Source of the DNA: Mariniphaga sp.
GTDB lineage: Bacteria > Bacteroidota > Bacteroidia > Bacteroidales > Prolixibacteraceae
NCBI GenBank assembly: GCA_024636975.1
Contig: JAGXGA010000055.1
Location: 310,001-374,000 of the forward strand
Length of the DNA stretch: 64,000 nucleotides
Direction of reading: 5' to 3'
Part shown: one piece after another, positions 1,668-57,216 of the stretch
Numbering within the stretch: position 1 is the stretch's first letter
Layout of the letters: each line of letters begins with the position of its first letter
Translations under genes and position numbers: made by a program
Notes under the pieces: model-generated
Databases searched by the model: none
Told to the model about the DNA's origin: nothing
The model's input: the letters and a program-made list of their open reading frames with translations, nothing else

Positions 1668-2624
1668 ATGAGAGGTTTCATTTTTGTGTTGCTGCTATTT
1701 AATATTGTTTTTTTTTCCGGTACAAATAAACTGAAAGGTCAAATACCTGAACAAAATCAAACCTGCCTTAAATGCCATACTTCACAAACTTTTACTCTTT
1801 ACAACGATTGGACTGAAAGGGAAGAAAAGAGGTTGATGAACCCTTTATATATACTGGATACTCTACAGCTTGCCATGGGAGTGCACAGCTCGTTCAATTG
1901 CATTGACTGTCATTCGATGGATTATGAGACATATCCTCATAACGGAGAATTGAAGCTGGAGCCAATGATGACATGTATCGATTGCCATGGAGGCGATGAA
2001 ACGTATGCATCATGGAAGTTTGATGAAATTCAGGAAGAATTTCATAAGAGTGTGCATTATGAACTATATGGTGATCAATTTTCCTGTTCCAAATGCCACA
2101 GCCAACATTACTATCGTCCTGTCGCAACAGTAAGTTCCAGTTTGCAGGAAATTGTGCGGGCCGATAATTCAATGTGCCTTTCGTGCCATGATAACATGGC
2201 CAGGTACCAGTTGGTTTCAGATACTGCCAATTTGCAGGTGGTTCAAATTCATGAGTGGCTGCCAAACCAGGAACTACATTTCAATCGGGTACGTTGTATT
2301 GAATGCCATACAGAAGTACAGGATTCATTACTGGTTTCGCATAATATCATGAGAAAAGAAGAGGCTACCAGAAATTGTGTTGAATGCCATTCAGAAAATT
2401 CTATGCTTCAGGCCTCTTTATACCGTTATCAAAACCTTCAGGCACGGACAGATCAAAATGGATTCCTGGCCGCTTTAAGTGCTGGAAACAGTGATTTATC
2501 AGATGAATATTATGTAATTGGAGCTTCTCGCATTCCATATCTGAATCTCATTTATGCCATCATATTCTTTGCAACTTTAGGCGGAATTGCTATTCATACA
2601 ATCTTTAGAATATTAAAAAAATAG
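1668..2624 (+). CDS. Seven-haem membrane-anchored cytochrome c
   Basis: A 318-residue protein with a signal sequence (about residues 1-20), seven CxxCH haem c motifs (CLKCH, CIDCH, CIDCH, CSKCH, CLSCH, CIECH, CVECH) and a C-terminal membrane helix (about residues 290-312) followed by a short basic tail. This is the layout of a periplasmic multihaem electron carrier held in the inner membrane. Its stop is 4 bp before the start of the b561-type gene, so the two are translationally close and very likely form a quinol-to-haem module. The exact redox partner cannot be named from sequence; a cytochrome c3/nitrite-reductase-like role is possible. Confidence 0.85.
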   Translation: MRGFIFVLLLFNIVFFSGTNKLKGQIPEQNQTCLKCHTSQTFTLYNDWTEREEKRLMNPLYILDTLQLAMGVHSSFNCIDCHSMDYETYPHNGELKLEPMMTCIDCHGGDETYASWKFDEIQEEFHKSVHYELYGDQFSCSKCHSQHYYRPVATVSSSLQEIVRADNSMCLSCHDNMARYQLVSDTANLQVVQIHEWLPNQELHFNRVRCIECHTEVQDSLLVSHNIMRKEEATRNCVECHSENSMLQASLYRYQNLQARTDQNGFLAALSAGNSDLSDEYYVIGASRIPYLNLIYAIIFFATLGGIAIHTIFRILKK

Positions 2625-2628
2625 ATTA

Positions 2629-3246
2629 ATGGGAACGGGAGAAAAACTCTATTTATATCCGGTTTGGCTAAGAATATGGCATGGGATCAATGCTCTGTGC
2701 ATTATTGCCTTAATTATCTCGGGAATAAGTTTACATTATTCTGGCAGAACCTTTTTTTTACTTGATTTTCAATCAGCAATTACTGTGCATAATATTGCAG
2801 GTTTCGTTCTTTCCATAAGTTACTTTCTATTCTTTTTTGGTAACCTATTTACTAAAAACGGAAAATATTACCGGGTAAAGATCAAAGGGCTTGATAAAAG
2901 GCTACTAAAGCAAATTAATTATTATGTATTCGGTATGTTTAAAGGAGAAGAATCACCTTTTCCTGTATCAGAGAAACGAAAGTTTAACCCGCTTCAAAAA
3001 TATGCCTACATTTTTATAATGTATGTTTTCATGCCCCTCTTAATTATTACAGGATTTGCTTTATTTTTCCCGGAGATTATTATAGAACAAATATTTCAGA
3101 TAAGTGGTATAATGTTTACCGCCGTTTTGCATGGCATAATAGGATTTTTTGTTTTTGTATTTTTACTTGTTCATTTATATGTGGCTTCAATGGGCAAATC
3201 TCCCGGAGAAAACTACAAAAGTATTATTACCGGCTGGCATTCTTGA
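2629..3246 (+). CDS. Cytochrome b561-type membrane subunit
   Basis: A 205-residue integral membrane protein with about four hydrophobic helices. The conserved start (PVWLRIWHGINALCI) has a His in the first helix, and further His residues occur in later helices (VHNIAGF, LHGIIGF, VHLYVASM). These are the usual b-haem ligands of the cytochrome b561 / formate-dehydrogenase-gamma / thiosulfate-reductase superfamily. It would oxidise menaquinol and pass electrons to the seven-haem protein encoded 4 bp upstream. The gene order (multihaem c then b561) supports a two-subunit quinol dehydrogenase. Confidence 0.82.
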   Translation: MGTGEKLYLYPVWLRIWHGINALCIIALIISGISLHYSGRTFFLLDFQSAITVHNIAGFVLSISYFLFFFGNLFTKNGKYYRVKIKGLDKRLLKQINYYVFGMFKGEESPFPVSEKRKFNPLQKYAYIFIMYVFMPLLIITGFALFFPEIIIEQIFQISGIMFTAVLHGIIGFFVFVFLLVHLYVASMGKSPGENYKSIITGWHS

Positions 3247-12967: not shown

Positions 12968-13840
12968 ATGTTGGTTAAAGCTTACGGCAGCGCTGTTTTC
13001 GGAATCGATGCCACAACAATTACAATTGAAACAGACGTAGTTCAGGGAATAAAATTTATGCTTGTAGGCCTTGCCGACAGTGCCGTACGAGAGAGCCAGC
13101 AACGCATTGAATCAGCTTTGCGGTTGAATGGCTACAAGTGGCCCCGTCAGAAAATCATAGTAAACATGGCCCCTGCCGATATCCGAAAGGAGGGTTCGGC
13201 ATATGACCTTCCACTGGCTGCGGCTGTTCTGGCAGCAGATAAGCAGATCAGCGATCAGAAATTAGCGAAATATATATTGATGGGAGAATTGTCGCTCGAC
13301 GGAAACCTTCAGCCAATCCGGGGGGTCCTTCCAATTGCCATTAATGCCCGTAAGGAGGGGTTTGAAGGGTTTATCCTTCCCAAACAAAATGCCCGTGAAG
13401 CAGCTGTTGTTGATAAGCTGAAGGTTTATGGTGCTGAAAACATAAGAGAGGTCATTGACTTTCTGAATGGAAACAATTCACTGGAACAGGTTATTGTAGA
13501 TACCCGTGCTGAGTTTTATGCCCAGATAAACAATAACCCGCTCGATTTTTCCGATGTGAAGGGGCAGGAAAATGTGAAGCGGGCGCTGGAAATAGCTGCC
13601 GCCGGCTCGCATAACATTATCCTCATTGGCCCGCCCGGTTCAGGAAAGACAATGCTTGCCAAGCGAATTCCTACCATCCTTCCGCCGTTTACCTTAAAGG
13701 AAGCGCTCGAAACTACCAAGATTCATTCGGTAGCTGGAAAGATAGGAAAGGATACTTCGCTGATGACCCAAAGGCCTTTTCGCAGTCCTCATCACACAAT
13801 TTCTGATAATATAGTTATACAAAATGAGGTGTATAACTAA
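12968..13840 (+). pseudogene. comM: 5' part of comM (YifB/Mg-chelatase family), split by the mobile element
   Basis: The frame gives the N-terminal LonC/ChlI-like domain of ComM ([23 protein letters not shown]...) and the start of the AAA+ domain with Walker A GPPGSGKT at residues 221-228. Native sequence ends at HTISD (13807). The next 33 bases belong to the element and add a short foreign tail before a stop at 13840. The rest of the gene lies at 55664-56365, 41.9 kb away, in the same orientation. The split falls before Walker B, so the left product cannot be an active helicase. ComM is a branch-migration helicase needed for efficient natural transformation, so the insertion should impair that until the element excises. 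Confidence 0.93.
13799..13837 (+). other. attL of the serine recombinase element
   Basis: comM sequence ATTTCT is followed by the GA crossover (13805-13806), then a 7-base spacer and GTTATAC-AAAATGAGG-TGTATAAC (13814-13837). The reverse complement of that arm matches the arm at the right end of the element base for base in CACCTCATTT and TATAAC. The equal 7-base spacing on both sides is what places the crossover at GA rather than at the nearby shared TTC. Confidence 0.82.
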
Positions 13841-25650: not shown

Positions 25651-26013
25651 TCAGATGAGTTTCCATTTTTCTTCAAGGATACAGAGTTGGTCTAATATTT
25701 CATTTTGTAAACCGGCTCTGCTTCCAGCTAAATGTATTTCTAATCTAATTCTCCCGTCTTTGCAGTCAATTCGTTCTGTTATTTTGTCTGGTAGGTGTTT
25801 TCTAAATCTGGAATACAATGTCGTGTCTTTAAATTCTTGAGTACTAAACTCTACTGATGATATTAATTCTCTTAATTGTCTAATAAAAACAATTCTTTCA
25901 TTGCGACGCAATTTTAATTTTTCAACTTGCCATTTTGCGAATGGTACAAAATACCCTGTTATAATACCAAATATACCAGCAATTATTGCAGTCCAAATAT
26001 CAATTTTCATCAT
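25651..26013 (-). CDS. Small membrane protein, third gene of the cyclase operon
   Basis: A 120-residue protein with one N-terminal membrane helix (about residues 7-25, WTAIIAGIFGIITGYFVPFA) followed by a basic helical region (KWQVEKLKLRRNERIVFIRQLRELI) and a mixed C-terminal domain. It begins 45 bp after the cyclase-like gene on the same strand, so it is the last gene of a three-gene operon. Membrane proteins are the usual partner (effector) of cyclic-nucleotide defence enzymes such as Pycsar, which suggests but does not prove that role here. Confidence 0.7.
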   Translation of the reverse strand: MMKIDIWTAIIAGIFGIITGYFVPFAKWQVEKLKLRRNERIVFIRQLRELISSVEFSTQEFKDTTLYSRFRKHLPDKITERIDCKDGRIRLEIHLAGSRAGLQNEILDQLCILEEKWKLI

Positions 26014-26058
26014 ATTATTATTATTTAAACATCAACCTGTTTTGCAAAAACCAATTTT

Positions 26059-26811
26059 TTATTCATTTTCTTCTTCAAGTAGTATTTTATTTCCTATTTC
26101 CTTCACTGTTTTAAGATAGTTCAATGTGTTATCAATGTACGTTCTTAAATGTCCGGAGGTATTTATTCGGAAGGCAACTACCTTCTTTTCTAATTCAGTT
26201 ACTGTGCTTTCTTCAAATTCTTCAGATAGTGATACTCCTGGGACAATTGTTTGGTGTATTGCACTTCCGCTTTTTAATGGGCAATTATATTCGACTACAG
26301 ATTCATCTTCGAAAATATCTCCATTAATTTCTGCTGTACCATGAACTACAATTCCATAGAATTTTAACTCTTCCTGAAGTAGGTATGCGTCAACCAAAGG
26401 TTGTCCGAAGAATATGGACTCCTCAAAATCTAAAGTCATTCTTCCAAATGCAATTGCTCCTTTATGAGGTATTCCATCTGTAAATAAAGAGTCTGATAAT
26501 GTGGAGATTGAGCCAATTAAGTTTTCAAGGCTATGAGAATCATCATCTCTGGTGTATAGCATGATACTGTCGGAAAATAGCAACATTGAAACATTGATGT
26601 CAATTTCAGCTTCTGATTCGTAATCAACTGAAAAAACTGACTGGATGGAACGAACTGATTTCGATACTTTCTTCATCATGCTGTAGACCTCATCATGAGG
26701 AATCCTTGATATCATATTTTTAAATCCCATGATATCTACAAATCCTACGTACCGATTTGTTGTTACCTTCCAAGGAGTTGTTTTATATTTCTCTTTTGAT
26801 TCTTTAGTCAT
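26059..26811 (-). CDS. Class III nucleotide-cyclase-like protein A
   Basis: A 250-residue soluble protein with the fold signature of class III cyclases: VGFVDIMGFKNMI (metal-site Asp26), then LLFSDSIMLY (second metal-site Asp81), then KGAIAFGRM and a later strand with GQPLVDAYLLQEE. Both metal-binding Asp positions are present, so catalysis is possible. Substrate-specifying residues cannot be judged by eye. The gene starts 25 bp after the HNH-GHKL gene and is followed by the membrane-protein gene. Single-domain cyclases in defence loci make cCMP or cUMP in Pycsar; membership of that family is plausible but not shown. Confidence 0.7.
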   Translation of the reverse strand: MTKESKEKYKTTPWKVTTNRYVGFVDIMGFKNMISRIPHDEVYSMMKKVSKSVRSIQSVFSVDYESEAEIDINVSMLLFSDSIMLYTRDDDSHSLENLIGSISTLSDSLFTDGIPHKGAIAFGRMTLDFEESIFFGQPLVDAYLLQEELKFYGIVVHGTAEINGDIFEDESVVEYNCPLKSGSAIHQTIVPGVSLSEEFEESTVTELEKKVVAFRINTSGHLRTYIDNTLNYLKTVKEIGNKILLEEENE

Positions 26812-26836
26812 TATCGATTAGGTGCTGGCAATTTTA

Positions 26837-27937
26837 TTATTCAATAATTATTATTTGACAATCCGGATAATTTTTACTCAATATTTCACTTACATTATCA
26901 GAAATTCTCTGCACAATGAATATCATTGAACTTGAAATTCCATTAAATTGAGGAAAGTTTCTTGGCATAAGATATACATCACTTAAGGAGAAATATGGAG
27001 GCAATACAACATAAAATTCCTTACAGTTTGCTGTTATAGTTAATGATTTTTTACCACTATGAAAATCCTTAAAACTTATATCAGCACTACAAGGAGTAAT
27101 ATTTAGTATTTCTTTACTTGCTCTTAAAAATGAAATGGTCGTTTGGTTCAAATTATTTATTCGATGTGTTGTAAAAACTATTTTACTCCCAAATTTGGAA
27201 AGCAAATACTTCAATGCATTTGTTCCTCCTGTTTCTGATTTTTTTGATAATAGCTCACGGGGATTATATTCCTTACCATTATCGCTGATTATAATTTTAT
27301 TGTCATTGATTTTGATTTCAAATTTAGTTGCTGAACCATGTAAAAATGAATTTCTTGCATGTTCAATAGCGTAATCTCTAATTGAATCGGATAGTTTATC
27401 GCCCCAAGCGATAGAAATACAACTATCAAATATTAAATCTCCTATTAGTTCATTTTCAACTCCAATTTGAGTCATTGAAATTTCATTTGTTAAAGGGTTT
27501 TTCCCTTGTATTAATTTTAATGCCGTTTTGAAATCATATCCGTTTTCTAACATTAACGTAGCAATTTCTTCGGCAAGAATTCTCCATGAATTAAGTAATT
27601 CAATTGAAAATCTTGTTTCATCCGTATCAATAAGCTTTCCGTGTTTATAACACATCCAAATCCCATTGCTTATATCCATACGTTGTTCAGGTGTCATAAA
27701 TTCATCGTAACGTCTAGCTCCTTTTCCCATTGAAGCCGCTGAGATATGACAAGCAGTACCAATTGAACTTGTTGAACTTTTACTTTCTTCACTAGGTCCA
27801 ATTGTCAACGTTCCGCAATATGGAAATGAACAAAGATATCCTGCTCTTTTCGCTAATCGTATTTTAGTATCTTCTGAAAATTCATCTCTCATAATACAGT
27901 TTTTATCATGATAGCACGGTCGTTTTTTTGCTTGCAT
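26837..27937 (-). CDS. HNH-like zinc domain fused to GHKL (histidine kinase-type) ATPase
   Basis: A 366-residue protein. Residues about 20-125 form an HNH-like zinc domain found at the start of many defence proteins: LAKRAGYLCSFPYCG, ACHISAAS, RRYDEFMTPEQR, NGIWMCYKHGKLID. Residues about 165-300 form a GHKL ATP-binding domain: IRDYAIEHARNSFLHG (N-box with Glu and Asn), IIISDNGKEY (G1 DxG) and SETGGTNALKYLLSKFG (G2-like). There is no phosphoacceptor His domain, so it is not a standard kinase. It is the first gene of the operon with the cyclase-like and membrane proteins. It could act as sensor, nuclease or regulator; no named system with this order is known to me. Confidence 0.75.
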   Translation of the reverse strand: MQAKKRPCYHDKNCIMRDEFSEDTKIRLAKRAGYLCSFPYCGTLTIGPSEESKSSTSSIGTACHISAASMGKGARRYDEFMTPEQRMDISNGIWMCYKHGKLIDTDETRFSIELLNSWRILAEEIATLMLENGYDFKTALKLIQGKNPLTNEISMTQIGVENELIGDLIFDSCISIAWGDKLSDSIRDYAIEHARNSFLHGSATKFEIKINDNKIIISDNGKEYNPRELLSKKSETGGTNALKYLLSKFGSKIVFTTHRINNLNQTTISFLRASKEILNITPCSADISFKDFHSGKKSLTITANCKEFYVVLPPYFSLSDVYLMPRNFPQFNGISSSMIFIVQRISDNVSEILSKNYPDCQIIIIE

Positions 27938-45561: not shown

Positions 45562-48500
45562 TTATTTCAAAATGATTCTGATTTTATTACGTTCTTTTCC
45601 CTTAGTTATCTCATCGATGTATTTTTTAAATGCATCAATGGCGCCGTCGGGTGTTAATGGTTTGCTGAAAGTAAATTTTAAAGCATCGACAGTGAGTTCA
45701 AGCTTTTCCAATCCTCTGTGCAATGCCATAATTGCATTGCGGATAGCAAGTGCATTGCTTTTCTTAATCGTTACTTTTCCCGATTTGAAGTTATGCAATA
45801 ACGTGCTTTGGTTTTCATCCAGAAGGCTCATGTTCTTTTTGGCAATAGGGTCGTCTAAAAATTCGAGAAGGGTCTCTTCCCATAACCTCAGCAGTTCATC
45901 AAATTCTTCTTTCAGTTGAACAACACTTGTAACAGGAGTCCCTTCATAATCAACCGGGTTAAAACCCTGATATGGGGCAGCCAAAATGATTTCTTTGTTT
46001 ACTTTATCGTCAGCTACCTGCAGCTTGTATAACTTATTTTCCCATTGAGTAAACTGTGCTTTCGACAAGAAATCGGCATCTTTTAATATGTCACAAACAG
46101 CTTTGGTTTCAGAATCGAGCAAAGCCATCTTTTTTATATTGTCAGCTTCACTTATTCTGTATTGCAGGTACAGTTTTAAATACCACTCAGCATATTTTTC
46201 CTTTAACTGATTCAGCTTCATTTGGTATGCATCCTTTTTTGCCTGATTGTCAGAGTCTAAAACAACAGACAAAAAATTGATGGCATCAGTAATATCTTGT
46301 TTGAATGTATGTTCGGTAACGTATTGTTTGCACTGCTGCAAATAATTGATATCATCTTTTAAGATATCAATTTCAATAAGTTGTTTTTCCAGCTTTTCAA
46401 TAACCGGTTTGGCTTCCAGTACTCTGTTGATTTCCTCAACGGAATACTTGAAATTTTTCATCTTTGCCTCTGTATTGTAATTAGCAACTTTATCACAGAA
46501 ACCTGAAAAACCAGTTAATTTCGTCCTGTAATGAATAGCATCGTCTTCTGATATAACTGCAAAACCTTTATATGTATATCCACCATTTATTTTACTGTTT
46601 AATGTAACGGCGCGTTTAGCCCAGTCATTTGCTGTACTTACAAGACTGGTATAAGTTGAAGGGTCTTTAAGCTGCTTGCTCAGATCACGGCCAAGTAGAC
46701 CTATGAACATAGCTTTTAATGCAGCCTCATTTAACCCCTTGGGTGGTTTAATATGTGTAAAAGAATAATAGTCTTCGCGGCTTAATGAGCGCAATTCATC
46801 CAGATTGGTAGAATTAATCGATTTTCCTGAAGAAAAGGTGATTTCAAATTCACCTAAAGCAGCAAGAGTTGCCAATACCAGGAATTCAAATTCAGCTTCA
46901 ATTTTAAACTCTTTTGTTAACCAAAGGTTATCGCTTTGTTCAACGTATTCAAGTATGTCCTCACGATTTAAGACTTTGCCTTCTCCTTTTTCTTTTAACG
47001 ACTGCATGAGACTAATGGCATAAGGCGAATGTTGATAGTCCAGCATACCCGGCACCCAAAGTCCCAATCCGGATAGGATAGCTTCTCCGTCTCTGTTTGA
47101 TTGTTCCGGATTGCTTATCTTTGCTAAAGCACTTTTAATCAAGCGATCGGTGTTGTCTTTAGATATGAAAAAATTCAGTTGTGTAAATTTCGGATAATTG
47201 GGACGTTCATTTTCGAACCAATTTTCAAGCACGCTTGATGCCACTTCAGAAAATATCTGTTCTTTAGTTGACCCTCCGGGAGGCAGTGCATATCCTTTTA
47301 AAGGAAGTTCCCTGCCCATGTAGTCAACAGTAGTTATTTGTACGAATTGCTCATCAAATAAAGCTCTTGCCTTTTTATTGAGTTCATCAATTTTTGTTTT
47401 ATAAATGCCTTTCTGAGATGAATCAGCTCTTTTCTCGAGGGCAAAGGCAGAGCCAAAAAGAGTTACAGCCTCTTTAAAATCATCGGATAATTTATCGAAA
47501 ATAAAATAGACTTCATCTTCTTCATGATTTCTTCGTTTTTTTTCTTCGTCGAATATGGGCATGAAGTACATGTAAAAATGCTGTCGGGGATGGGTTGTCG
47601 ATTTTTCATTGGGATTACCAAAAAAAATGTATCCTTCCCGATAAGTTTTGTGAGATTTCCAGTCCAACGTGTGTGTCCAAATATTGAACCCTGTCCGATA
47701 GGTATCATGCTCCAGGGGAAGGTTAATGCTTAGAAATTTATAGAAGTATTCATCCTTCTGTGATTCGGCCATTGTTTTCGCATAATCTTTTATCTTTTGG
47801 TCAAAATTAATGCCTCCTTCAATTCTTAAATGATATTCTCCGTTGTCAGGATTTTTATCGAAATACTGCCCGGCTGTGGCAGTAATTACCTGTTGTGCGG
47901 TAGAGTCTATAACATCTATCAAAAACTCACGATCATCAGCCAACTTATCGGTTAATGTCAGGTCATCAACAAGATGTTCAGAATTCGTTCCATTTTGTTT
48001 GTTCAGTTCATGCTGCAACACCTTAATTGCACAGGCATTGGAAATTCGTTGTGCAATTTCTTTTTTTACCTGGCGTACACCGGTAAAATAGGAGTCAATC
48101 TTATCGTTAATGGTATCTGTAATTTCTTTCACTTTCCGAACATCAGGAATAGCCATAAGATCCTGGTTCTTTTGAATGTCCTGCCAATACCTGTCGTAAG
48201 TGAGCAAGCCCGGGTTATTTTCAGGTACATGTTCATCAAGCATTTGCTCAAACTGATTGGATAATGTTTTTAATATCTCGCGCTGGCTCTTTCCTATACG
48301 GATGCGTTCAAAATTTTCAAAATAGGATGGATGGACAGGAAAAAGTTCAACGTAATCCTGTGTCCTGGCATGTAAATCGGTAAAGAATTTTAAAAACGGG
48401 TCAAGATGATCCCGAATCTTTTGTTTTTGATGTTCATTTTTTCGAAGAAGCCTGTTTTTAACTATATAGGCCACATCTTCTTTTGTAATCATGATGTCCT

Positions 48501-49221
48501 TATATCTGTCATTCACTTTCTGCAACATTTCCGCAGCGAATTGAAACTCCGGTGAATAATAGATCATTTCCTGGACACCAAACATGAACTTGAATTTCGA
48601 AGAGTCACAGGCTTGTCCAAGTGCCTGCAATACCTGCAGGTCATAATTTAATTTGTCAGGTGTGCTTCTGCTTTTCAGATAAGCCAGCATTTCATCAATT
48701 ACGATCAACAAACCCTTATCTGGGTATTTTTGCTCAAATTCAGCCATCATCAGCTGAAACTTCTCGAAGTAACTTTTGGGACCATGTCCTTCAAATGAAA
48801 AATCTATTTTAATTTCAGCAAGATAATTTTCAACTTTATATGTTATAACCTCCCAAAGACTTTCAGTATTTCCCAGCTCAAAACGAAGCACCTTAAATTT
48901 TCCGGCAATCTTCCGTAACTCCTCCTTTGGCTTCTCTGTGTTAACCAATTCAACAAGCTCAGCATTTTCAGCAATTAGTGAAACCAATGACATCAGATGA
49001 GATTTTCCTGTACCATAATTCCCCACTACATGAAGACCAAACGCTTCTCCGCTATAATTAAAATCAAGATTCCTCACCATGAGCGGAATGAGATGGTTCT
49101 TGAATGTTTCAGAAAATACGAACGTTTTTACAAGTGATTTCTGGTAAACAGAATCAATGGTGCGGCTAAACTTTACGACTTCAGTGATTGGTTCAAAGCT
49201 TAATAATTCATTGTACTTCAT
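45562..49221 (-). CDS. brxC: BrxC-like ATPase, DUF6079 (BREX type 3)
   Basis: A 1219-residue AAA-type ATPase: Walker A VVGNYGTGKSHLMSL (about residues 67-80) and Walker B GLLIVIDEMLAYLKSR (about residues 168-183). The rest is a long helical body with coiled coils towards the C-terminus. BrxC/PglY proteins of this length are the large ATPase of every BREX system. It overlaps brxF by four bases and precedes pglXI by five, in the type 3 order. Confidence 0.9.
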   Translation of the reverse strand: MKYNELLSFEPITEVVKFSRTIDSVYQKSLVKTFVFSETFKNHLIPLMVRNLDFNYSGEAFGLHVVGNYGTGKSHLMSLVSLIAENAELVELVNTEKPKEELRKIAGKFKVLRFELGNTESLWEVITYKVENYLAEIKIDFSFEGHGPKSYFEKFQLMMAEFEQKYPDKGLLIVIDEMLAYLKSRSTPDKLNYDLQVLQALGQACDSSKFKFMFGVQEMIYYSPEFQFAAEMLQKVNDRYKDIMITKEDVAYIVKNRLLRKNEHQKQKIRDHLDPFLKFFTDLHARTQDYVELFPVHPSYFENFERIRIGKSQREILKTLSNQFEQMLDEHVPENNPGLLTYDRYWQDIQKNQDLMAIPDVRKVKEITDTINDKIDSYFTGVRQVKKEIAQRISNACAIKVLQHELNKQNGTNSEHLVDDLTLTDKLADDREFLIDVIDSTAQQVITATAGQYFDKNPDNGEYHLRIEGGINFDQKIKDYAKTMAESQKDEYFYKFLSINLPLEHDTYRTGFNIWTHTLDWKSHKTYREGYIFFGNPNEKSTTHPRQHFYMYFMPIFDEEKKRRNHEEDEVYFIFDKLSDDFKEAVTLFGSAFALEKRADSSQKGIYKTKIDELNKKARALFDEQFVQITTVDYMGRELPLKGYALPPGGSTKEQIFSEVASSVLENWFENERPNYPKFTQLNFFISKDNTDRLIKSALAKISNPEQSNRDGEAILSGLGLWVPGMLDYQHSPYAISLMQSLKEKGEGKVLNREDILEYVEQSDNLWLTKEFKIEAEFEFLVLATLAALGEFEITFSSGKSINSTNLDELRSLSREDYYSFTHIKPPKGLNEAALKAMFIGLLGRDLSKQLKDPSTYTSLVSTANDWAKRAVTLNSKINGGYTYKGFAVISEDDAIHYRTKLTGFSGFCDKVANYNTEAKMKNFKYSVEEINRVLEAKPVIEKLEKQLIEIDILKDDINYLQQCKQYVTEHTFKQDITDAINFLSVVLDSDNQAKKDAYQMKLNQLKEKYAEWYLKLYLQYRISEADNIKKMALLDSETKAVCDILKDADFLSKAQFTQWENKLYKLQVADDKVNKEIILAAPYQGFNPVDYEGTPVTSVVQLKEEFDELLRLWEETLLEFLDDPIAKKNMSLLDENQSTLLHNFKSGKVTIKKSNALAIRNAIMALHRGLEKLELTVDALKFTFSKPLTPDGAIDAFKKYIDEITKGKERNKIRIILK

Positions 49222-49646
49222 AGGGTAATGTAACTCAGGTTATCTAATTTTATTTCTATTCCTTCTTTGGTTAACAAATATAATTTATTCTGTTCAACTT
49301 CTCCTTTCCATTCAATAAACAACAGATTGTCAGTGGAAAATTTCTTAAGAGTATATTCAAAATCTATCTTCAACTCCGGTTCAAACAGGATTCCCAGATT
49401 AGTTAAGGATAGTACTTTGCCAAATTCAGGATCCACATAAACTGCAGATTTAAGCAAGTTTTCCATTAACTGTTTAGCTTTAAATGAAATATTTCTGTCA
49501 CCGATTAGTCCTTCCAGACGGACAGCTAATTCTTTTCCGACATTAAGGGATTTCAATTCAGGTATAGGTTCTCTGTGAATAATAATTTTATTCAGAGAAG
49601 GGGAATTCATGTAAGACTTCAGTTTGTCGTGTGCAGAGTAAATCAT
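49218..49646 (-). CDS. brxF: BrxF-like protein without a P-loop (BREX type 3)
   Basis: A 142-residue protein, first gene of the BREX operon. The middle and end resemble BrxF: SLNVGKELAVRLEGL, then LTNLGILFEPELKIDFEYTLKKFS and FIEWKGEVEQNKLYL, which match the conserved LN...L, D/N-I-LF-PELK and W-G positions of the family. The usual N-terminal GxxGxGKS P-loop is missing; the matching region reads KIIIHREPIPELK. Length, position before brxC and the four-base overlap support the assignment. Loss of ATP binding is an unusual feature if confirmed. Confidence 0.65.
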   Translation of the reverse strand: MIYSAHDKLKSYMNSPSLNKIIIHREPIPELKSLNVGKELAVRLEGLIGDRNISFKAKQLMENLLKSAVYVDPEFGKVLSLTNLGILFEPELKIDFEYTLKKFSTDNLLFIEWKGEVEQNKLYLLTKEGIEIKLDNLSYITL

Positions 49647-50294: not shown

Positions 50295-51251
50295 TTACTT
50301 ATACACTTTGGGCACAGTATTCTTTCTTTTCTCAATCCAATTGGCCTTTAATCCAAGTGAATCTATCTTTTTAATTTCAATCTTATTTGTCGGGTTATGT
50401 ATTTCAGGAACAATTAAATTATGTGAATAAATCATTATTTCTGTCCCTTTAGTAGCATTCGCTGCGTGATAATTTAGCTCATATGTTCTCTGTAGGAATG
50501 GTTGATAAAGATTTCTGATATTCAAGTCATTATCATAAGACACCAACCAAAATCTTTTTTTTAATTTTGCAATAAGTTGCGAAATCTGTTGATGGTCTGC
50601 GTGCTCGTAAAAGTTGATGTAAAGGTCTTTTCCTTTGTTGTAATAAGGTGGGTCAAAATAAAAAAGAGTCTTGTCGGGCAGTTCCTTATCCAATCTGATA
50701 GTCAAATCAACCGCATCTAAGTTGTATAAGGAAATTCTATTCTTGTAACGGCTTATTTTCTTTATTCGATGAATTAAATCTTCTTTATTAAATCTTGCGT
50801 CAATTTTCCAATCACCGTTTTGATTTTTACCACCAATTACACCTGCTTTTAAGATTCCTGACCTATTGGTTCTGTTTAAGAAAAAAGTTGAAAATCCAAT
50901 TTCAAGGTTGTTGTAGTTATTAGGGGCTTGCTGTATTTCCTTCTGCTTTTCCCAATTCTTTATTGTAATGTCAGTTTCAATTATTTTTTCGCAAAGTTGG
51001 TCTGTTTGGTTCAATACGCTGTCCCAAAATGCGTAAATTCGAAAGTCATAATCATTTATGTGGATTTTATGAACGTATTCGTTGAATAGCAATGAAAGAG
51101 CAACGGACGCACCACCCGCGTATGGTTCAACATAGTGGCCATCTGTCAATAGGTTATATTCAATAAGTAATTGAACATAATATGAAAGCTTCCCTTTTCC
51201 ACCTGGGTAACGAAGGGGCGAATAATAATTTGTGGTTAAATTAATTCCCAT
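50295..51251 (-). CDS. Dam-type DNA adenine methyltransferase
   Basis: A 318-residue D12-class adenine methylase: SPLRYPGGKGKLSYYV (motif X), YVEPYAGGASVALSLL (motif I), INDYDFRIYAFWDSVL, and LFYFDPPYYNKGKDLYINFY (motif IV DPPY). All core motifs are intact, so it should be active; the recognition site is not readable, though GATC-type specificity is common in the class. It overlaps the ParB-like gene by 16 bases and is third in the operon. No cognate restriction enzyme lies beside it. Confidence 0.9.
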   Translation of the reverse strand: MGINLTTNYYSPLRYPGGKGKLSYYVQLLIEYNLLTDGHYVEPYAGGASVALSLLFNEYVHKIHINDYDFRIYAFWDSVLNQTDQLCEKIIETDITIKNWEKQKEIQQAPNNYNNLEIGFSTFFLNRTNRSGILKAGVIGGKNQNGDWKIDARFNKEDLIHRIKKISRYKNRISLYNLDAVDLTIRLDKELPDKTLFYFDPPYYNKGKDLYINFYEHADHQQISQLIAKLKKRFWLVSYDNDLNIRNLYQPFLQRTYELNYHAANATKGTEIMIYSHNLIVPEIHNPTNKIEIKKIDSLGLKANWIEKRKNTVPKVYK

Positions 51252-52591
51252 AGTTTTACAAAAAATATTTCTAAGTTATCCCAATTTTTTTTCAACTGTT
51301 CAGCGTCTGGATTGAAGTCTTTGTTATGTACAAAGGCATTGAATGTGTCAATTGAAAAAATACTGTCTTTCATTGTTGAAGCAGTATATGCACCTTTTAA
51401 TTTGTTTTTATCAAGCACTCCTTTACTTTCTAAGTCTGATGCTACCGATTTTAGTTTATGACTTAATTTACTTTTCTCGATAACTCCTGAAATTGGATTT
51501 TTTTCAATGTAACTATCCATCGATAATTCAATAAACACACGAAAAGCAATCGCACCTGAGTTTTCAAAATCCCTTAAATCAAGGTCTTTGAGTTCGTGGT
51601 AAATCTTATTAACTCTGGGCTGACTAATAGGAATTATTGTGCTTTTAGGAATTATTGTATGCCGTTTAGAAATCAAAGGATTACTTTTTTTGCCTTTTGG
51701 CTTGTCTTTTTTGGGGTCAGCTTTTTTTGGTCTAGTTGTGCTAATCAATTCCCAATTTCCCGATAGTTCCTGAGTTTTGTCAGGTAGGTCTGTTTTTTTA
51801 AAAGTTTCCAGATAGTTGAGACGGTCGTCTTTGTAATAAATGTCTTTTACTGTAAAATTCTTTCTCAATAAATCATTTGCGGCTTTACTTAAAGGTTTTG
51901 CTACTTCTGATGGTTCATATCTAGTAATTACCTTTCCATCTTTGACATCAATTCCTGCAACTCTTCTAAAGTCAGGGTCAGTAACCAAACGTTGAAGTGA
52001 AGAAGATTTTACTTTGCTTAAATTCTTTTTAAGTTCAGAATCAACGGAATCTTCTTTTTGTAAAAAATCAATTACTTGTAGTGCATAACTTGAAGTTCCT
52101 TTAACTCGCTCATCATAACGAGCTTTTTGTTGTGCATCCCATACAACCGTTCCAACTCCATCGTTTTGGCCTGTATGCTTTAATTCAATCCAATGCTCTG
52201 CTTCCTTTTCTTCATCAAAAAGTATGCAAGGCATCTTTTCGATAGGTGATTTTGAGTATTGTTCAGATAGCTTTTTGAACTTATTTAAAAGAGACTTATT
52301 CGTTTCAGGAATTAAGTCGGGATTTTCAAGCAACTTTAGTGCAGTAACTCTACGATTTCCTTCTAAAACATTATATTGATTTGGTTGTTTTTCGTGTTTT
52401 GTTACAAAAATTGGGTCGCCTGGGTTTAACCCTTCATTGGTAATGTCTTCAGCTAACTTGGCCAATTTTTCTCCTTGGTCTTCAATCATTGTTTTGATAG
52501 CTTCCCTTTGATTGCCGACCATCTCAAATCTAGGATTTTCGATATTTATGTGTAAATCGGCTATGTCCAATAATGTTCGTTTGTGACTCAT
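51236..52591 (-). CDS. ParB/sulfiredoxin-fold protein
   Basis: A 451-residue protein. Residues about 1-110 match a ParB-N domain: ADLHINIENPRFE, IEDQGEKLAKLAEDITNEGL and NVLEGNRRVTALKLLENP (the box II/III region with E-G-N-R-R). The middle is helical, and residues about 295-330 are Lys-rich (KPKGKKSN). ParB-fold proteins outside chromosome segregation include CTPases and DNA-modification partners. It lies between a cyclase-like gene (5 bp upstream) and a methylase gene that it overlaps. A sensing or DNA-bound scaffold role is possible but unproven. Confidence 0.8.
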   Translation of the reverse strand: MSHKRTLLDIADLHINIENPRFEMVGNQREAIKTMIEDQGEKLAKLAEDITNEGLNPGDPIFVTKHEKQPNQYNVLEGNRRVTALKLLENPDLIPETNKSLLNKFKKLSEQYSKSPIEKMPCILFDEEKEAEHWIELKHTGQNDGVGTVVWDAQQKARYDERVKGTSSYALQVIDFLQKEDSVDSELKKNLSKVKSSSLQRLVTDPDFRRVAGIDVKDGKVITRYEPSEVAKPLSKAANDLLRKNFTVKDIYYKDDRLNYLETFKKTDLPDKTQELSGNWELISTTRPKKADPKKDKPKGKKSNPLISKRHTIIPKSTIIPISQPRVNKIYHELKDLDLRDFENSGAIAFRVFIELSMDSYIEKNPISGVIEKSKLSHKLKSVASDLESKGVLDKNKLKGAYTASTMKDSIFSIDTFNAFVHNKDFNPDAEQLKKNWDNLEIFFVKLWELI

Positions 52592-52596
52592 TTTGT

Positions 52597-53220
52597 TTAT
52601 GACTTTAAAGCGTTTATCATTCCTGCATATTTTAGAGAATAACTGTCTCTATAATTATTTTCGAAGTTTTGAATCTCTTCGGGGTTTTCTAGATGCCAAT
52701 AATAATATAGATGCTGTCTGTCGTTTCCCCTTTCGACTAAAAGCGTTATGTTTTCTATATTAATATCTGGTAAGTTTTGTTTTACCAACCTGCATTGACC
52801 GGGCTGAATTTTTGGCTTACCCGTTTCGTTGTCTAGAAATGACTGAACGTATGCACCGCCATAAATTGCATTCTTTTCAATGCCCTGAAATTCAATTTTT
52901 CCCTGATAATCAAAAGAACCGAATGAAATTGATGTAGTCAACATATAGTTCTTTTCAATCATTCTTTTGTTAATTTTCTTCACGGCATCCAAAATACTCA
53001 AAAGTTTCGTCTGGTTGTCTCCATTTCGGGAAAACAAAATTCCGCAATCAGATACAAAGAATCCTTCTACATTATCAGTATCCCTTAACACATTAAAGCC
53101 CGTCTGATAAAAATATTTTATAGCTTCTAATGCAGTTGCGTCATTTTTCATAAGTTCCTTAAAACCTGAAATGTCAGTAAACGCAACAAATGTATTTCCG
53201 TTAAAGTCTGCTATTGGCAT
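52597..53220 (-). CDS. Class III nucleotide-cyclase-like protein B
   Basis: A 207-residue soluble protein with the same fold signature as protein A at 26059-26811 but low identity: FVAFTDISGFKELM (metal-site Asp16), FFVSDCGILFSRNG (second Asp58), then LTTSISFGSFDYQGKIEFQG and AIYGGAYVQSFLDNE. Both metal-site Asp residues are present. It is the first gene of an operon with the ParB-like and Dam-type genes (5-bp gap). Whether it makes a cyclic nucleotide or only binds nucleotides cannot be told from sequence. Confidence 0.65.
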   Translation of the reverse strand: MPIADFNGNTFVAFTDISGFKELMKNDATALEAIKYFYQTGFNVLRDTDNVEGFFVSDCGILFSRNGDNQTKLLSILDAVKKINKRMIEKNYMLTTSISFGSFDYQGKIEFQGIEKNAIYGGAYVQSFLDNETGKPKIQPGQCRLVKQNLPDINIENITLLVERGNDRQHLYYYWHLENPEEIQNFENNYRDSYSLKYAGMINALKS

Positions 53221-54014: not shown

Positions 54015-55607
54015 TTAAATAACAATCTTTTTACTATTATCAAGGCTAAAACCAGAATAGTTCCATACTTCTCTGTAGTTTTTTAATTGAAAACCATCAT
54101 CTGTTGATATCACACCATCATCAGCACCTACCAAAGTGAATACTCTTTTGTCCCTGGAACTAATATAATTAGTTAATACTTCATTTGGGTAAGACATAGT
54201 AATATCAATCTTGTATACAACATTATCCTTTCTTTGATTGAAAGGAGTAACCTCAAGAGGGACATTGCTAATGTCAATTCTTGAAATAACTTTCTGAAAT
54301 TCACCAATAAAATTTTCACCGGCCATATCAAACTTAAATTCTTTGGTTTGTTCAGGTACCACTTTTAGTTGCTGTTTGAACTTTTCTATTCTATTCCTAT
54401 CCTTTTTAATATTTGCTTCATGGTCTTCTGATATTTCTAAAAATATCCGCTCGTTGACATGCCCTTTCATAAAACTCCGAGTTAATTTCGAAAGCTCTTT
54501 AGTTAATTCTTCAACATGAGCTTCAACATTTGTAATCTTTGTGTTGAGCTGTTGGTTATGCTTCTCCGTTTTGCTTTTAATTTTATTCCAGTCAAATCTA
54601 TCAGACATCATAATTATTGTAAGTATGAACATATTTAACAAATCAATATTTATTCCTATCAAACCACAAGCGTTCTCTGCATATCTCAATTTAGTTGAAA
54701 GACATTTATAAGCATTATCAGATAGATCTTTTCTTCGATGCATATGTAAAGGTTTTCCACAGTTGCCACAAAAAACTAGACTTTTAAGAAGGTTAATATT
54801 TTTCGAGTCACGATGGTTATATAGTGCTTTCTTTTTAATTAAATCTTGGACAGCTTGCCATTTTTGGAATGGGATAATGATATCAAGATTATATGGCATT
54901 TTCTCTCCATTATGAAATCGTTCACCTTTATATAGGGGATTATGAAGAATGTCGTTTACGGTCTTATCTACCCACTGTTTTCCTTTTCTAGTTGAAATTT
55001 TCAGATCATTTAAATGTTGTGCAATTTTATGCATGCTAAATCCATTTAAGTATTTGTCATAAATGATTCTTACCATTTGAGCTTCATCAGGATTTATCGC
55101 TAACAATTTATTAACTGATTGAAATCCATATGGCTGAACTGCACCATTTGCACCTCCTTTTAGCTTTGAAGAACGTAATCCTGATTTTACCCTTGTTCGT
55201 AAAGTTTCTACTTCAGATTCAGCTATTGCTGAAAATATTGAAATGAAAAGAGTTGCATTATGGTTTTTGCTGCCATCGGGATTTAAGGTGGAAATATTCT
55301 CGTGTTTTGAATGTATACAAATCCCTTCTGATATCAAGTCTTCGATAATATTAATAGTATTACGATTATTTCTACCGATTCTAGATAACTCATGAACGAA
55401 AATATGTTTAATTTCATTTTCACGTGCAAACTTTAACATTCTCGAAAACTCAGGTCTATCAACTTGTTTTGTTCTACCAGAAATGTTTTCGTAAAAATTT
55501 TCAATTACCCGATATCCAAGGGTAATGGCATGATTGTTTAATTCATTAATTTGACGGTCAGAATTTTGATCCTCGGTACTAACCCGGGCATAAACTACAG
55601 CTTTCAT
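54015..55607 (-). CDS. Large serine recombinase (integrase of the element)
   Basis: A 530-residue serine recombinase. The catalytic domain (1-150) has AVVYARVSTEDQNSDRQ with nucleophile Ser10, then HELSRIGRNNRNTINII with the active-site Arg residues. The recombinase domain follows (GQ/AVQPYGFQS ... NGFSMHKIAQHLND ... DKTVNDILHNPLYKG). A zinc ribbon has CGNCG near residue 280 and two more Cys (YKCLST, NACGLI). A coiled coil lies about 345-410. It lies next to attR with its start 57 bp inside the crossover and recombines the GA-centred comM site. A recombination directionality factor was not identified; one of the small HTH or RHH proteins is a candidate. Confidence 0.94.
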   Translation of the reverse strand: MKAVVYARVSTEDQNSDRQINELNNHAITLGYRVIENFYENISGRTKQVDRPEFSRMLKFARENEIKHIFVHELSRIGRNNRNTINIIEDLISEGICIHSKHENISTLNPDGSKNHNATLFISIFSAIAESEVETLRTRVKSGLRSSKLKGGANGAVQPYGFQSVNKLLAINPDEAQMVRIIYDKYLNGFSMHKIAQHLNDLKISTRKGKQWVDKTVNDILHNPLYKGERFHNGEKMPYNLDIIIPFQKWQAVQDLIKKKALYNHRDSKNINLLKSLVFCGNCGKPLHMHRRKDLSDNAYKCLSTKLRYAENACGLIGINIDLLNMFILTIIMMSDRFDWNKIKSKTEKHNQQLNTKITNVEAHVEELTKELSKLTRSFMKGHVNERIFLEISEDHEANIKKDRNRIEKFKQQLKVVPEQTKEFKFDMAGENFIGEFQKVISRIDISNVPLEVTPFNQRKDNVVYKIDITMSYPNEVLTNYISSRDKRVFTLVGADDGVISTDDGFQLKNYREVWNYSGFSLDNSKKIVI

Positions 55608-55668: not shown

Positions 55669-56365
55669 CGCTTTGGTTGGTGGGGGTAACTATCCCCAGC
55701 CGGGGGAAATTTCGCTGGCACATAACGGGGTGCTTTTTCTCGATGAACTGCCCGAATTCAAACGCACTGTGCTGGAGGTAATGCGCCAGCCGCTGGAAGA
55801 CCGTTTAATTACAATCTCCCGTGCTAAATTCTCGGTGGAATACCCAAGCAGCTTTATGCTGATTGCCTCCATGAATCCCTGTCCGTGTGGTTACTATAAC
55901 CATCCCACCAAAGATTGCCTGTGCGGACCAGGCATCGTTCAGAAATACCTGAACAAAATATCGGGGCCCCTGCTCGACCGTATCGACATTCACCTGGAGG
56001 TGGTTCCTGTGCCGTTTAAGAAGCTGTCGGAAATGGAATCGTCGGAAAACAGTGAAACCGTCCGCAAGCGGGTGATAGAGGCCCGTAAAATCCAGGAAAG
56101 CCGTTTTAAGGAGAACAAGGGGGTTTATGCCAATGCCCAGATGAGCTCGAAGCTTATCCGCAAACACGTGCAGCTCGATGAGGCAGGCAATGAACTTATA
56201 AAAAATGCCATGGACAAACTGGGGCTCTCAGCACGTGCCTACGACCGTATCCTGAAAGTGTCCCGTACCATTGCCGACCTCGAAAACGAGCCGCAGGTGC
56301 TTGCACATCACCTCTCAGAAGCGATACACTATAGAAGTTTGGATAGGGAAAACTGGGGAGGATGA
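55664..56365 (+). pseudogene. comM: 3' part of comM, split by the mobile element
   Basis: From GAC-GTC-GCT the frame reads [20 protein letters not shown] and [12 protein letters not shown] (Walker B), then the arginine-finger and lid regions ([27 protein letters not shown]) and the C-terminal helix bundle. It completes the ComM protein started at 12968. A TTG at 55673 could act as a start, but no promoter is evident, so the fragment is probably silent in the integrated state. Confidence 0.93.
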
Positions 56366-56436: not shown

Positions 56437-57216
56437 ATGGAAAATCTCTCAGAGTCTTTGAAACAAATACATGAATTATTGAATAAGGCTGATACCATTT
56501 TTGATGAAAATAAATTCCGCTCGAAGGATAAATATGATGTACCGGAAATGCAGGTTGAATATTATATCGAAAGTGCATTTAGGCATACCTTAGTTTTGCT
56601 TGATAAATTAAATCTTACAAGAACTTATGATTTATTCATGGAAATATTCAGTGAAGCACAAAAGAAAGGTATGAGAGAAAGTGAGATGGGCATTGATGAA
56701 CCTTATTTAAAATGGTCGATAATAATATTTGATTTTTTAAAGTCCGTTGGAAATAGCTACAATACAAACCCATTTTCAGATTTTGTTATAAAGGATATTA
56801 AAACAATTTTAAGAGCTACACTATACTCTATTACTGATAAAAATTTATTCAGTAACCCACCAGATTGTGAAAGCGAGGTTCACTCCCGTATAGAGGCAGT
56901 ATTAAAGTGTGTTTTTCCAAATCTTAAACACAAACCAGTGATCAGCAAACCAATCAAGAATTTTGTGCCGGACACAGGACTTCCTTCAGTTCGAACATTA
57001 ATAGAATATAAATTTGTTTCAAATATTCAAGATGTAAAACGAATTTCTGACGAAGTTCTTGCAGATACCCGTGGTTATTTTTCACGAGAATGGGAAAAAT
57101 TTATTTATGTGATCTATGAAGTTAAGCGCATAAAACAAGAATCTGAATGGGTACTTATGTTAAAAGAGTGTGGTGTACCAAGTAATACAGAAATACTAGT
57201 TTTGCAGGGAGAGTGA
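56437..57216 (+). CDS. Hypothetical protein with PD-(D/E)XK-like C-terminal domain
   Basis: A 259-residue protein. The first 160 residues are helical. The end (about residues 185-255) reads NFVPDTGLPSVRTLIEYKFV, then ISDEVLADTRGYFSREWEKF and YVIYEVKRI, which fits PD-(D/E)XK nucleases: P-D, then E-Y-K, then a helix with aromatic residues and a V-I-Y strand. Such domains occur in restriction and other defence proteins. It lies 71 bp after comM, outside the element, in AT-richer sequence than comM, so it may be an independent acquisition. No partner gene is adjacent. Confidence 0.6.
   Translation: MENLSESLKQIHELLNKADTIFDENKFRSKDKYDVPEMQVEYYIESAFRHTLVLLDKLNLTRTYDLFMEIFSEAQKKGMRESEMGIDEPYLKWSIIIFDFLKSVGNSYNTNPFSDFVIKDIKTILRATLYSITDKNLFSNPPDCESEVHSRIEAVLKCVFPNLKHKPVISKPIKNFVPDTGLPSVRTLIEYKFVSNIQDVKRISDEVLADTRGYFSREWEKFIYVIYEVKRIKQESEWVLMLKECGVPSNTEILVLQGE

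Follow-up and report, generated by a model that had tools for sequence, protein, structure and literature searches.

PD-Lambda-5, an anti-phage system, was published by Vassallo et al (2022; PMC9519451), who describe it as 'compacted RM+Abi'; the word 'cyclase' does not occur in the main text of their paper. Here we describe a locus of Mariniphaga sp. (Bacteroidota, Prolixibacteraceae) in which the two genes of PD-Lambda-5 are preceded by a third one, within a window of 64,000 nucleotides (assembly GCA_024636975.1, contig JAGXGA010000055.1, positions 310,001 to 374,000) to which all coordinates given below refer. On the minus strand, from upstream to downstream, the locus comprises a protein of 207 amino acids (aa) with a predicted class III nucleotidyl cyclase fold (52597..53220), hereafter cyc, a ParB-like protein of 451 aa (51236..52591) and a D12-class (Dam-type) adenine-N6 DNA methyltransferase of 318 aa (50295..51251), the three together being called the trio. 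We consider it rather probable that the locus represents the PD-Lambda-5 defence with one extra operon gene, and that cyc is a nucleotide-binding accessory gating its effector. What is known in this locus is a two-gene defence system; what is new is cyc, a recurrent and uncharacterised cyclase-fold addition.

The most direct evidence for the identity of the two downstream genes comes from PADLOC, in which the ParB-like protein matches PD-Lambda-5_A (PDLC03998) over residues 5-449 of 451 with an E-value of 1.7e-162, and the methylase matches PD-Lambda-5_B (PDLC04018) with an E-value of 7.5e-126. By these profile matches, the ParB-like gene and the methylase form an already known combination. 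The locus resembles PD-Lambda-5 in both protein families, in the A-then-B order, in the common strand and in the overlapping or tight spacing, and differs from it by the extra cyclase-fold gene upstream, which among the loci examined is found only in this close clade. The first-pass annotation, made from the letters alone, had read three minus-strand genes with a 5-bp gap and a 16-bp overlap, encoding a cyclase-like protein, a ParB-fold protein and an adenine methylase, with no restriction enzyme. This reading is sustained in all its parts: the list of open reading frames (ORFs) gives 5 nt between cyc and the ParB-like gene and an overlap of 16 nt between the latter and the methylase; the first gene obtains its class from a structural model and its fold matches; the ParB N-terminal domain of the second, which carries an EGNRR motif, is recognised weakly and under the curated cut-offs (E 0.0042 in Pfam, 9.7e-6 in NCBIfam); the third passes the curated cut-off for D12 adenine methyltransferases in Pfam (E 5.6e-15) and shows YPGGK and DPPYY motifs in its translation; and no nuclease family exceeds the cut-off for any protein of the trio in Pfam, hence no restriction endonuclease is recognised in the operon. 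PDB sequence searches with the ParB-like protein and with its alignment returned nothing reliable. The same annotation had considered that the trio might already be a named system, or that the methylase alone might be conserved with the other two varying freely. This is borne out in part: the ParB-like gene and the methylase do bear a name, and the gene that varies is the first. In the literature on PD-Lambda-5, with coverage that is thin for subscription papers and excludes bioRxiv preprints, no paper also mentions a cyclase; nor is the trio described, judging by titles and the beginnings of abstracts, in the literature on ParB/methyltransferase/cyclase defence, on mCpol/adenylyl cyclase conflict systems or on class III cyclases in prophage defence (including PMC10952713, PMC12839542 and PMC12657218). 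This coverage is partial and therefore does not prove that the trio is novel.

The protein cyc matches no family model in Pfam, PADLOC or NCBIfam (E ≤ 1) or in PHROGs (E ≤ 0.01), and PDB sequence searches with cyc and with the profile of its family returned nothing reliable. Its class was approached through structure prediction. A model built from the single sequence was unusable, with a predicted local distance difference test (pLDDT) of 36.9, and the AlphaFold2 model built from a 21-row alignment (A5, which leaves out the relatives from the genome samples and the loci L050 and L060, identical to other IMG/VR rows) reached a pLDDT of 84.9 and a predicted template modelling score of 0.85, residues 109-116 being unreliable. 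The best PDB fold match of this model is 3et6_B (Z 16.8, 3.0 Å over 165 residues), and among the matches listed all 50 PDB rows are class III cyclase entries. Foldseek gave 112 matches at E ≤ 0.001, with the solved PycC 7r65 at rank 44 (E 1.4e-5), and five of 808 matches in a library of viral structures passed E ≤ 0.001, of which two bear the name guanylate cyclase domain. The predicted fold of cyc is thus that of class III nucleotidyl cyclases. Six residues, F14, D16, G19, F20, K21 and D58, are invariant in all 21 rows, and when the alignment is compared by hhalign with three class III cyclases (E 1.9e-4, probability 47%), D16 and D58 pair with the metal aspartates, while V125 and L129 fall at the positions of the transition-state Asn and Arg. 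In class III cyclases, these two residues belong to a VNxASR-type motif, which is seen in the three sequences compared, one of them having Ile for Asn. At the V125 and L129 columns the 21 rows contain one Asn and no Arg, and a register shifted by one gives four Asn and no Arg. From this alignment, cyc has kept the metal-type aspartates and has lost the canonical transition-state residues. The likeness to class III cyclases therefore concerns the whole-domain fold and the two putative metal-binding aspartates, whereas the differences are a Val/Leu pair in place of the canonical Asn/Arg, an SD in the second motif where class III enzymes have GD, and a Lys that follows the GF of the first motif in every row of the alignment. 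A lysine at this place is reminiscent of GGDEF enzymes.

A scan of 84,980 species genomes with short peptide patterns, which detects close relatives only, yielded five close relatives of cyc (L042 to L046), and many residues of the protein are strictly conserved over identities of 66-95%. The closest one, L042 (95%, a Bacteroidetes metagenome-assembled genome, MAG), has a choloylglycine-hydrolase-family gene upstream and cyc followed at +5 nt by the ParB-like gene. In this locus, the ParB-like frame (2429-3085) stays 98.6% identical to that of the window over 218 codons and then stops, close to where the contig ends, as a broken gene or an assembly error, and no methylase is seen. Complete trios are found in L044 (75%, an Allomuricauda MAG), with a cyc-ParB spacing of -4 nt, and in L046 (72%, a Flavobacteriales MAG), with a spacing of +2 nt and a TetR-type gene upstream; with respect to the window, their ParB-like proteins are 88-89% and their methylases 86-87% identical. 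Directly before the trio of L044 (6793-7989) stand the candidate defence genes PDC-M34A and PDC-M34B (DUF5343, Swt1-like HEPN). The partners are different in the two other relatives. In L043 (80%, Halpernia humi), the gene next to cyc begins 75 nt past its end and encodes a protein of 674 aa, in which GHKL-ATPase motifs were recognised by eye and for which family searches gave no match. In L045 (66%, Chryseotalea sanaruensis), it lies between an Mrr-like protein (E 5.8e-6) and, 68 nt past its end, a PD-T4-3 protein (E 3.4e-46), itself followed by a HEPN/RES protein. PDLC03998 has no match in the genomes of L043 and L045. Counting the window, cyc precedes PD-Lambda-5_A in four of six loci, and the genes upstream differ among the four. 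Two complete trios together with the other partners in L043 and L045 indicate that the trio recurs, as the first-pass annotation had asked of its neighbourhood, and that cyc swaps partners; the neighbours in the five relatives and the differing upstream genes likewise indicate that the three genes of the trio travel together and that cyc also moves without the other two. The number of swaps is left uncounted because the inner branches of the six-sequence tree are all poorly supported. The three ORFs are genuine genes and not chance frames, since the second and third have the PADLOC E-values given above and since cyc shows between the window and L042 a nonsynonymous distance (dN) of 0.028 against a synonymous distance (dS) of 0.256. 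cyc is under purifying selection. For the other 14 cyc pairs, dS is above 1 or not computable. cyc diverges faster than its partners: between the window and L046, identity is 72% for cyc, 88% for the ParB-like protein and 87% for the methylase. cyc is rare: no match to it was obtained in collections of plasmids and phages (tblastn, E ≤ 1e-5), scans of IMG/VR with cyc, its six-row alignment and the ParB-like protein gave no confirmed relative, and in a sample of 395 genomes of the phylum the six-row profile had no hit outside the genome of the window.

The pair also recurs without cyc in other genomes of the phylum. PDLC03998 has matches in 25 of the 395 genomes, the window's genome among them. 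Of the 24 others, 23 supplied 24 stretches and the last one supplied L041, and all 25 stretches were searched with profiles for all three genes. In 11 of these 25 stretches (L067-L074, L076, L077 and L080), A, full or frame-split, adjoins B on the same strand. L085, with a weak A and a strong B, completes the 12 pairs counted in the 24 stretches, and L041, whose B is cut by the contig end, brings the count to 13; it rises to 14 with L099, a further PD-Lambda-5 carried by the L044 genome, so that one pair without cyc shares its genome with a trio. Left uncounted were L075, in which a full A has no adjoining B on the same strand, L084, L086 and L089, as well as another site of L075, in which a short A-like gene and a methylase are arranged differently, L078, L079, L081-L083, L087 and L088, which hold an A-like gene only, and L090, which holds no match; no cyc-family ORF was found in the remaining profile-searched stretches with partial, distant or rearranged matches. 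As the pair of L069 starts only 240 bp inside its contig, too close to the end for a gene upstream to be visible, 13 testable pairs remain.

Several observations weigh against a role of cyc in gating this system. A cyc-family ORF accompanies none of the 13 testable pairs (E ≤ 0.1 in the 25-stretch search, E ≤ 0.01 for L099), and cyc is therefore dispensable in general; the pair being commonly without it, A and B constitute the core and cyc an addition. The PD-Lambda-5 that has been published also functions in the absence of cyc. L041, whose ParB-like protein is the nearest relative lacking cyc (81% identity, 452 vs 451 aa), has no cyc within 10 kb of its pair, and this absence is considered genuine because the gene upstream of the pair is a sugar-nucleotidyltransferase-like one (sugar nucleotidyl transferase domain, E 2.7e-28 in Pfam). 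When the close cyc group alone is compared with the same three cyclases, hhalign gives a probability of 1.2% and an E-value of 0.045, and the sequence link to class III cyclases is consequently carried by the wider family and the fold.

We nevertheless prefer a nucleotide-binding accessory to a standard cyclase, because only the aromatic one of the base-selecting residues is shared by count with PycC enzymes and because no receptor domain is recognised in the partners of cyc. Judging from the founding paper and from the protein families, the methylase would mark the host DNA, the ParB-like protein would act on unmarked incoming DNA, or upon failure of the marking, and the infected cell would arrest or die, consistently with the 'compacted RM+Abi' designation (PMC9519451). 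We hypothesise that cyc acts as a gate on the effector, whether it senses how nucleotides change during infection or carries out a non-standard reaction on them. It is a portable module, as two further bacteria have it in front of different nuclease-type genes. The literature consulted on PD-Lambda-5 gives no worked-out mechanism, and a natural trio whose extra gene is of nucleotide-binding type, and which occurs within several unrelated flanks, offers a handle on the control of the ParB-like protein. The cyc family, devoid of the standard catalytic pair and associated with varied nuclease-type partners, is a candidate nucleotide-signal or nucleotide-sensing module and is the part of the locus worth following.

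cyc belongs to a wider family defined by the pattern FxDxxGFK...SD...G, which includes the window gene 26059-26811, a third copy in the same genome, genes of six other genomes (in a sample of 149) and 16 IMG/VR loci. Farther relatives of cyc, found with cyc itself or with the six-row profile in three of the 395 genomes and, besides the window's own, in one of the 149, all fall in it. The cyc of the window is a divergent branch of the family: its identity with the 15 distant alignment rows is 13-21%, and 15 of the 21 aligned relatives match phrog_23933, a phage family of unknown function with which cyc shares the FxDxxGFK...SD motif; cyc differs in that it does not itself reach the model at E 0.01. 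It can be tentatively proposed, as a possibility that we hold to be doubtful, that this family forms a class of nucleotide enzymes or sensors in defence that has not been described before, with a class III fold and a non-canonical active site, present in phages and prophages and placed before effectors of unrelated kinds, namely PD-Lambda-5, a GHKL-motif protein, Mrr-like and GIY-YIG nucleases, and that it here makes or reads a nucleotide signal switching the PD-Lambda-5 pair. Membership of mCpol/Panoptes was considered and dropped, as one of nine family members reached the Pfam mCpol model, at E 0.076, and the listed fold matches are class III (for Panoptes, see PMC12657218). Within the 16 IMG/VR contigs (L047-L062), the cyc-family genes (phrog_23933) sit among other genes. 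The window gene 26059-26811 is part of a second operon (25651-27937), in which the upstream gene encodes a 366-aa protein with an N-terminal stretch resembling SAVED-HNH/PDC-M68A effectors and GHKL-like motifs recognised by eye, and the downstream gene a 120-aa protein with a hydrophobic N-terminus. The third cyc-family gene of the genome (contig C58, 80837-81496; L040) is 35-37% identical to the 26059-26811 gene.

One alternative is an active enzyme, namely that cyc makes a cyclic or other mono- or oligonucleotide on infection and that the ParB-like protein is its receptor and effector, in the manner of Pycsar. The class III fold, the invariance of both metal aspartates, the strict conservation of residues among the close relatives, the presence of PycC 7r65 among the fold matches and the position of cyc before PD-Lambda-5_A in most of its loci would suit such an enzyme, and, as in Pycsar, a class III-fold protein with two active-site aspartates stands beside a defence gene. 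Solved PycC enzymes use, next to the two aspartates, base-selecting residues such as F100/R142/Q144 or F60/K104/F109 (PMC11224242). The corresponding residues of cyc, obtained by counting from the aspartates and not by superposition, are F14, F54, V56 and I61, of which only the aromatic one is common to PycC, and in the close group positions -4 and -2 from the second aspartate, again counted, are F and V/I, unlike R142/Q144 or K104. These counted hydrophobic positions, the Val/Leu pair at the transition-state columns and the absence of any recognised cyclic-nucleotide receptor domain from both the ParB-like protein and the methylase (Pfam, E ≤ 1) speak against such an enzyme and may set the locus apart from Pycsar; the C-terminal half of the ParB-like protein has no domain assigned. 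Furthermore, cyc has no match in PADLOC, which presumably includes PycC models. The ParB-like protein has nearly the same length in L041, without cyc, as in the window, which argues that no receptor part was added to it along with cyc. An active signalling enzyme is thus unlikely, and the pyrimidine cyclic-nucleotide signal suggested by the first-pass annotation is so far not supported, on the same grounds.

That cyc is an independent single gene, or a passenger of the island brought by chance before defence genes, with the PD-Lambda-5 pair working alone, is in our view quite unlikely. It is in agreement with the occurrence of cyc without PD-Lambda-5_A in two of the five other genomes, with the pair lacking cyc in all 13 testable cases and with the lower conservation of cyc (72-75%, against 88-89% for the ParB-like protein, between the window and L046 or L044). 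The spacing between cyc and A remains tight (5, 5, -4 and +2 nt) in four loci whose upstream genes differ, which speaks against a passenger.

The trio is carried by an island, in accordance with its earlier description as cargo between a BREX system and an integrase. A comM/Mg-chelatase-like gene of the plus strand is split, after ...HHTISD and before VALVGGG..., into an N-terminal half (12968..13840) and a C-terminal half (55673..56365), the latter marking the right edge of an insert of ~41.85 kb that contains BREX, the trio and a serine recombinase. This large recombinase (54015..55607, minus strand; Resolvase, Recombinase and zinc ribbon domains in Pfam) lies upstream of the trio, at the right end of the island. 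Just outside the island, the product of 56437-57216 (259 aa) contains a nuclease domain of the DpnII-MboI type (E 2.4e-8). An ordinary type II restriction-modification system with a stray neighbour, in which this gene would be the cognate nuclease of the D12 methylase ~5 kb away, is highly improbable, and the gene was dropped as the missing nuclease, since it stands outside the island, past the C-terminal comM half, and since no relative of it turned up near cyc or PD-Lambda-5 in the five cyc loci or in the 25 other stretches searched. No common repeat of more than 8 bases was found when the end regions of the island were compared, and a scan for a Bacteroidetes-type promoter motif was uninformative (64 matches vs 86 expected). 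Downstream of the trio, BrxF/BrxC of BREX lie at 45562-49646, the BrxF-like gene occupying 49218-49646 (E 8.7e-7 in PADLOC), and the genes from BrxC through PglX, BrxHI and PglZ to BrxA reach down to 31065. The G+C content is 0.36 within the island, against 0.40-0.42 outside.

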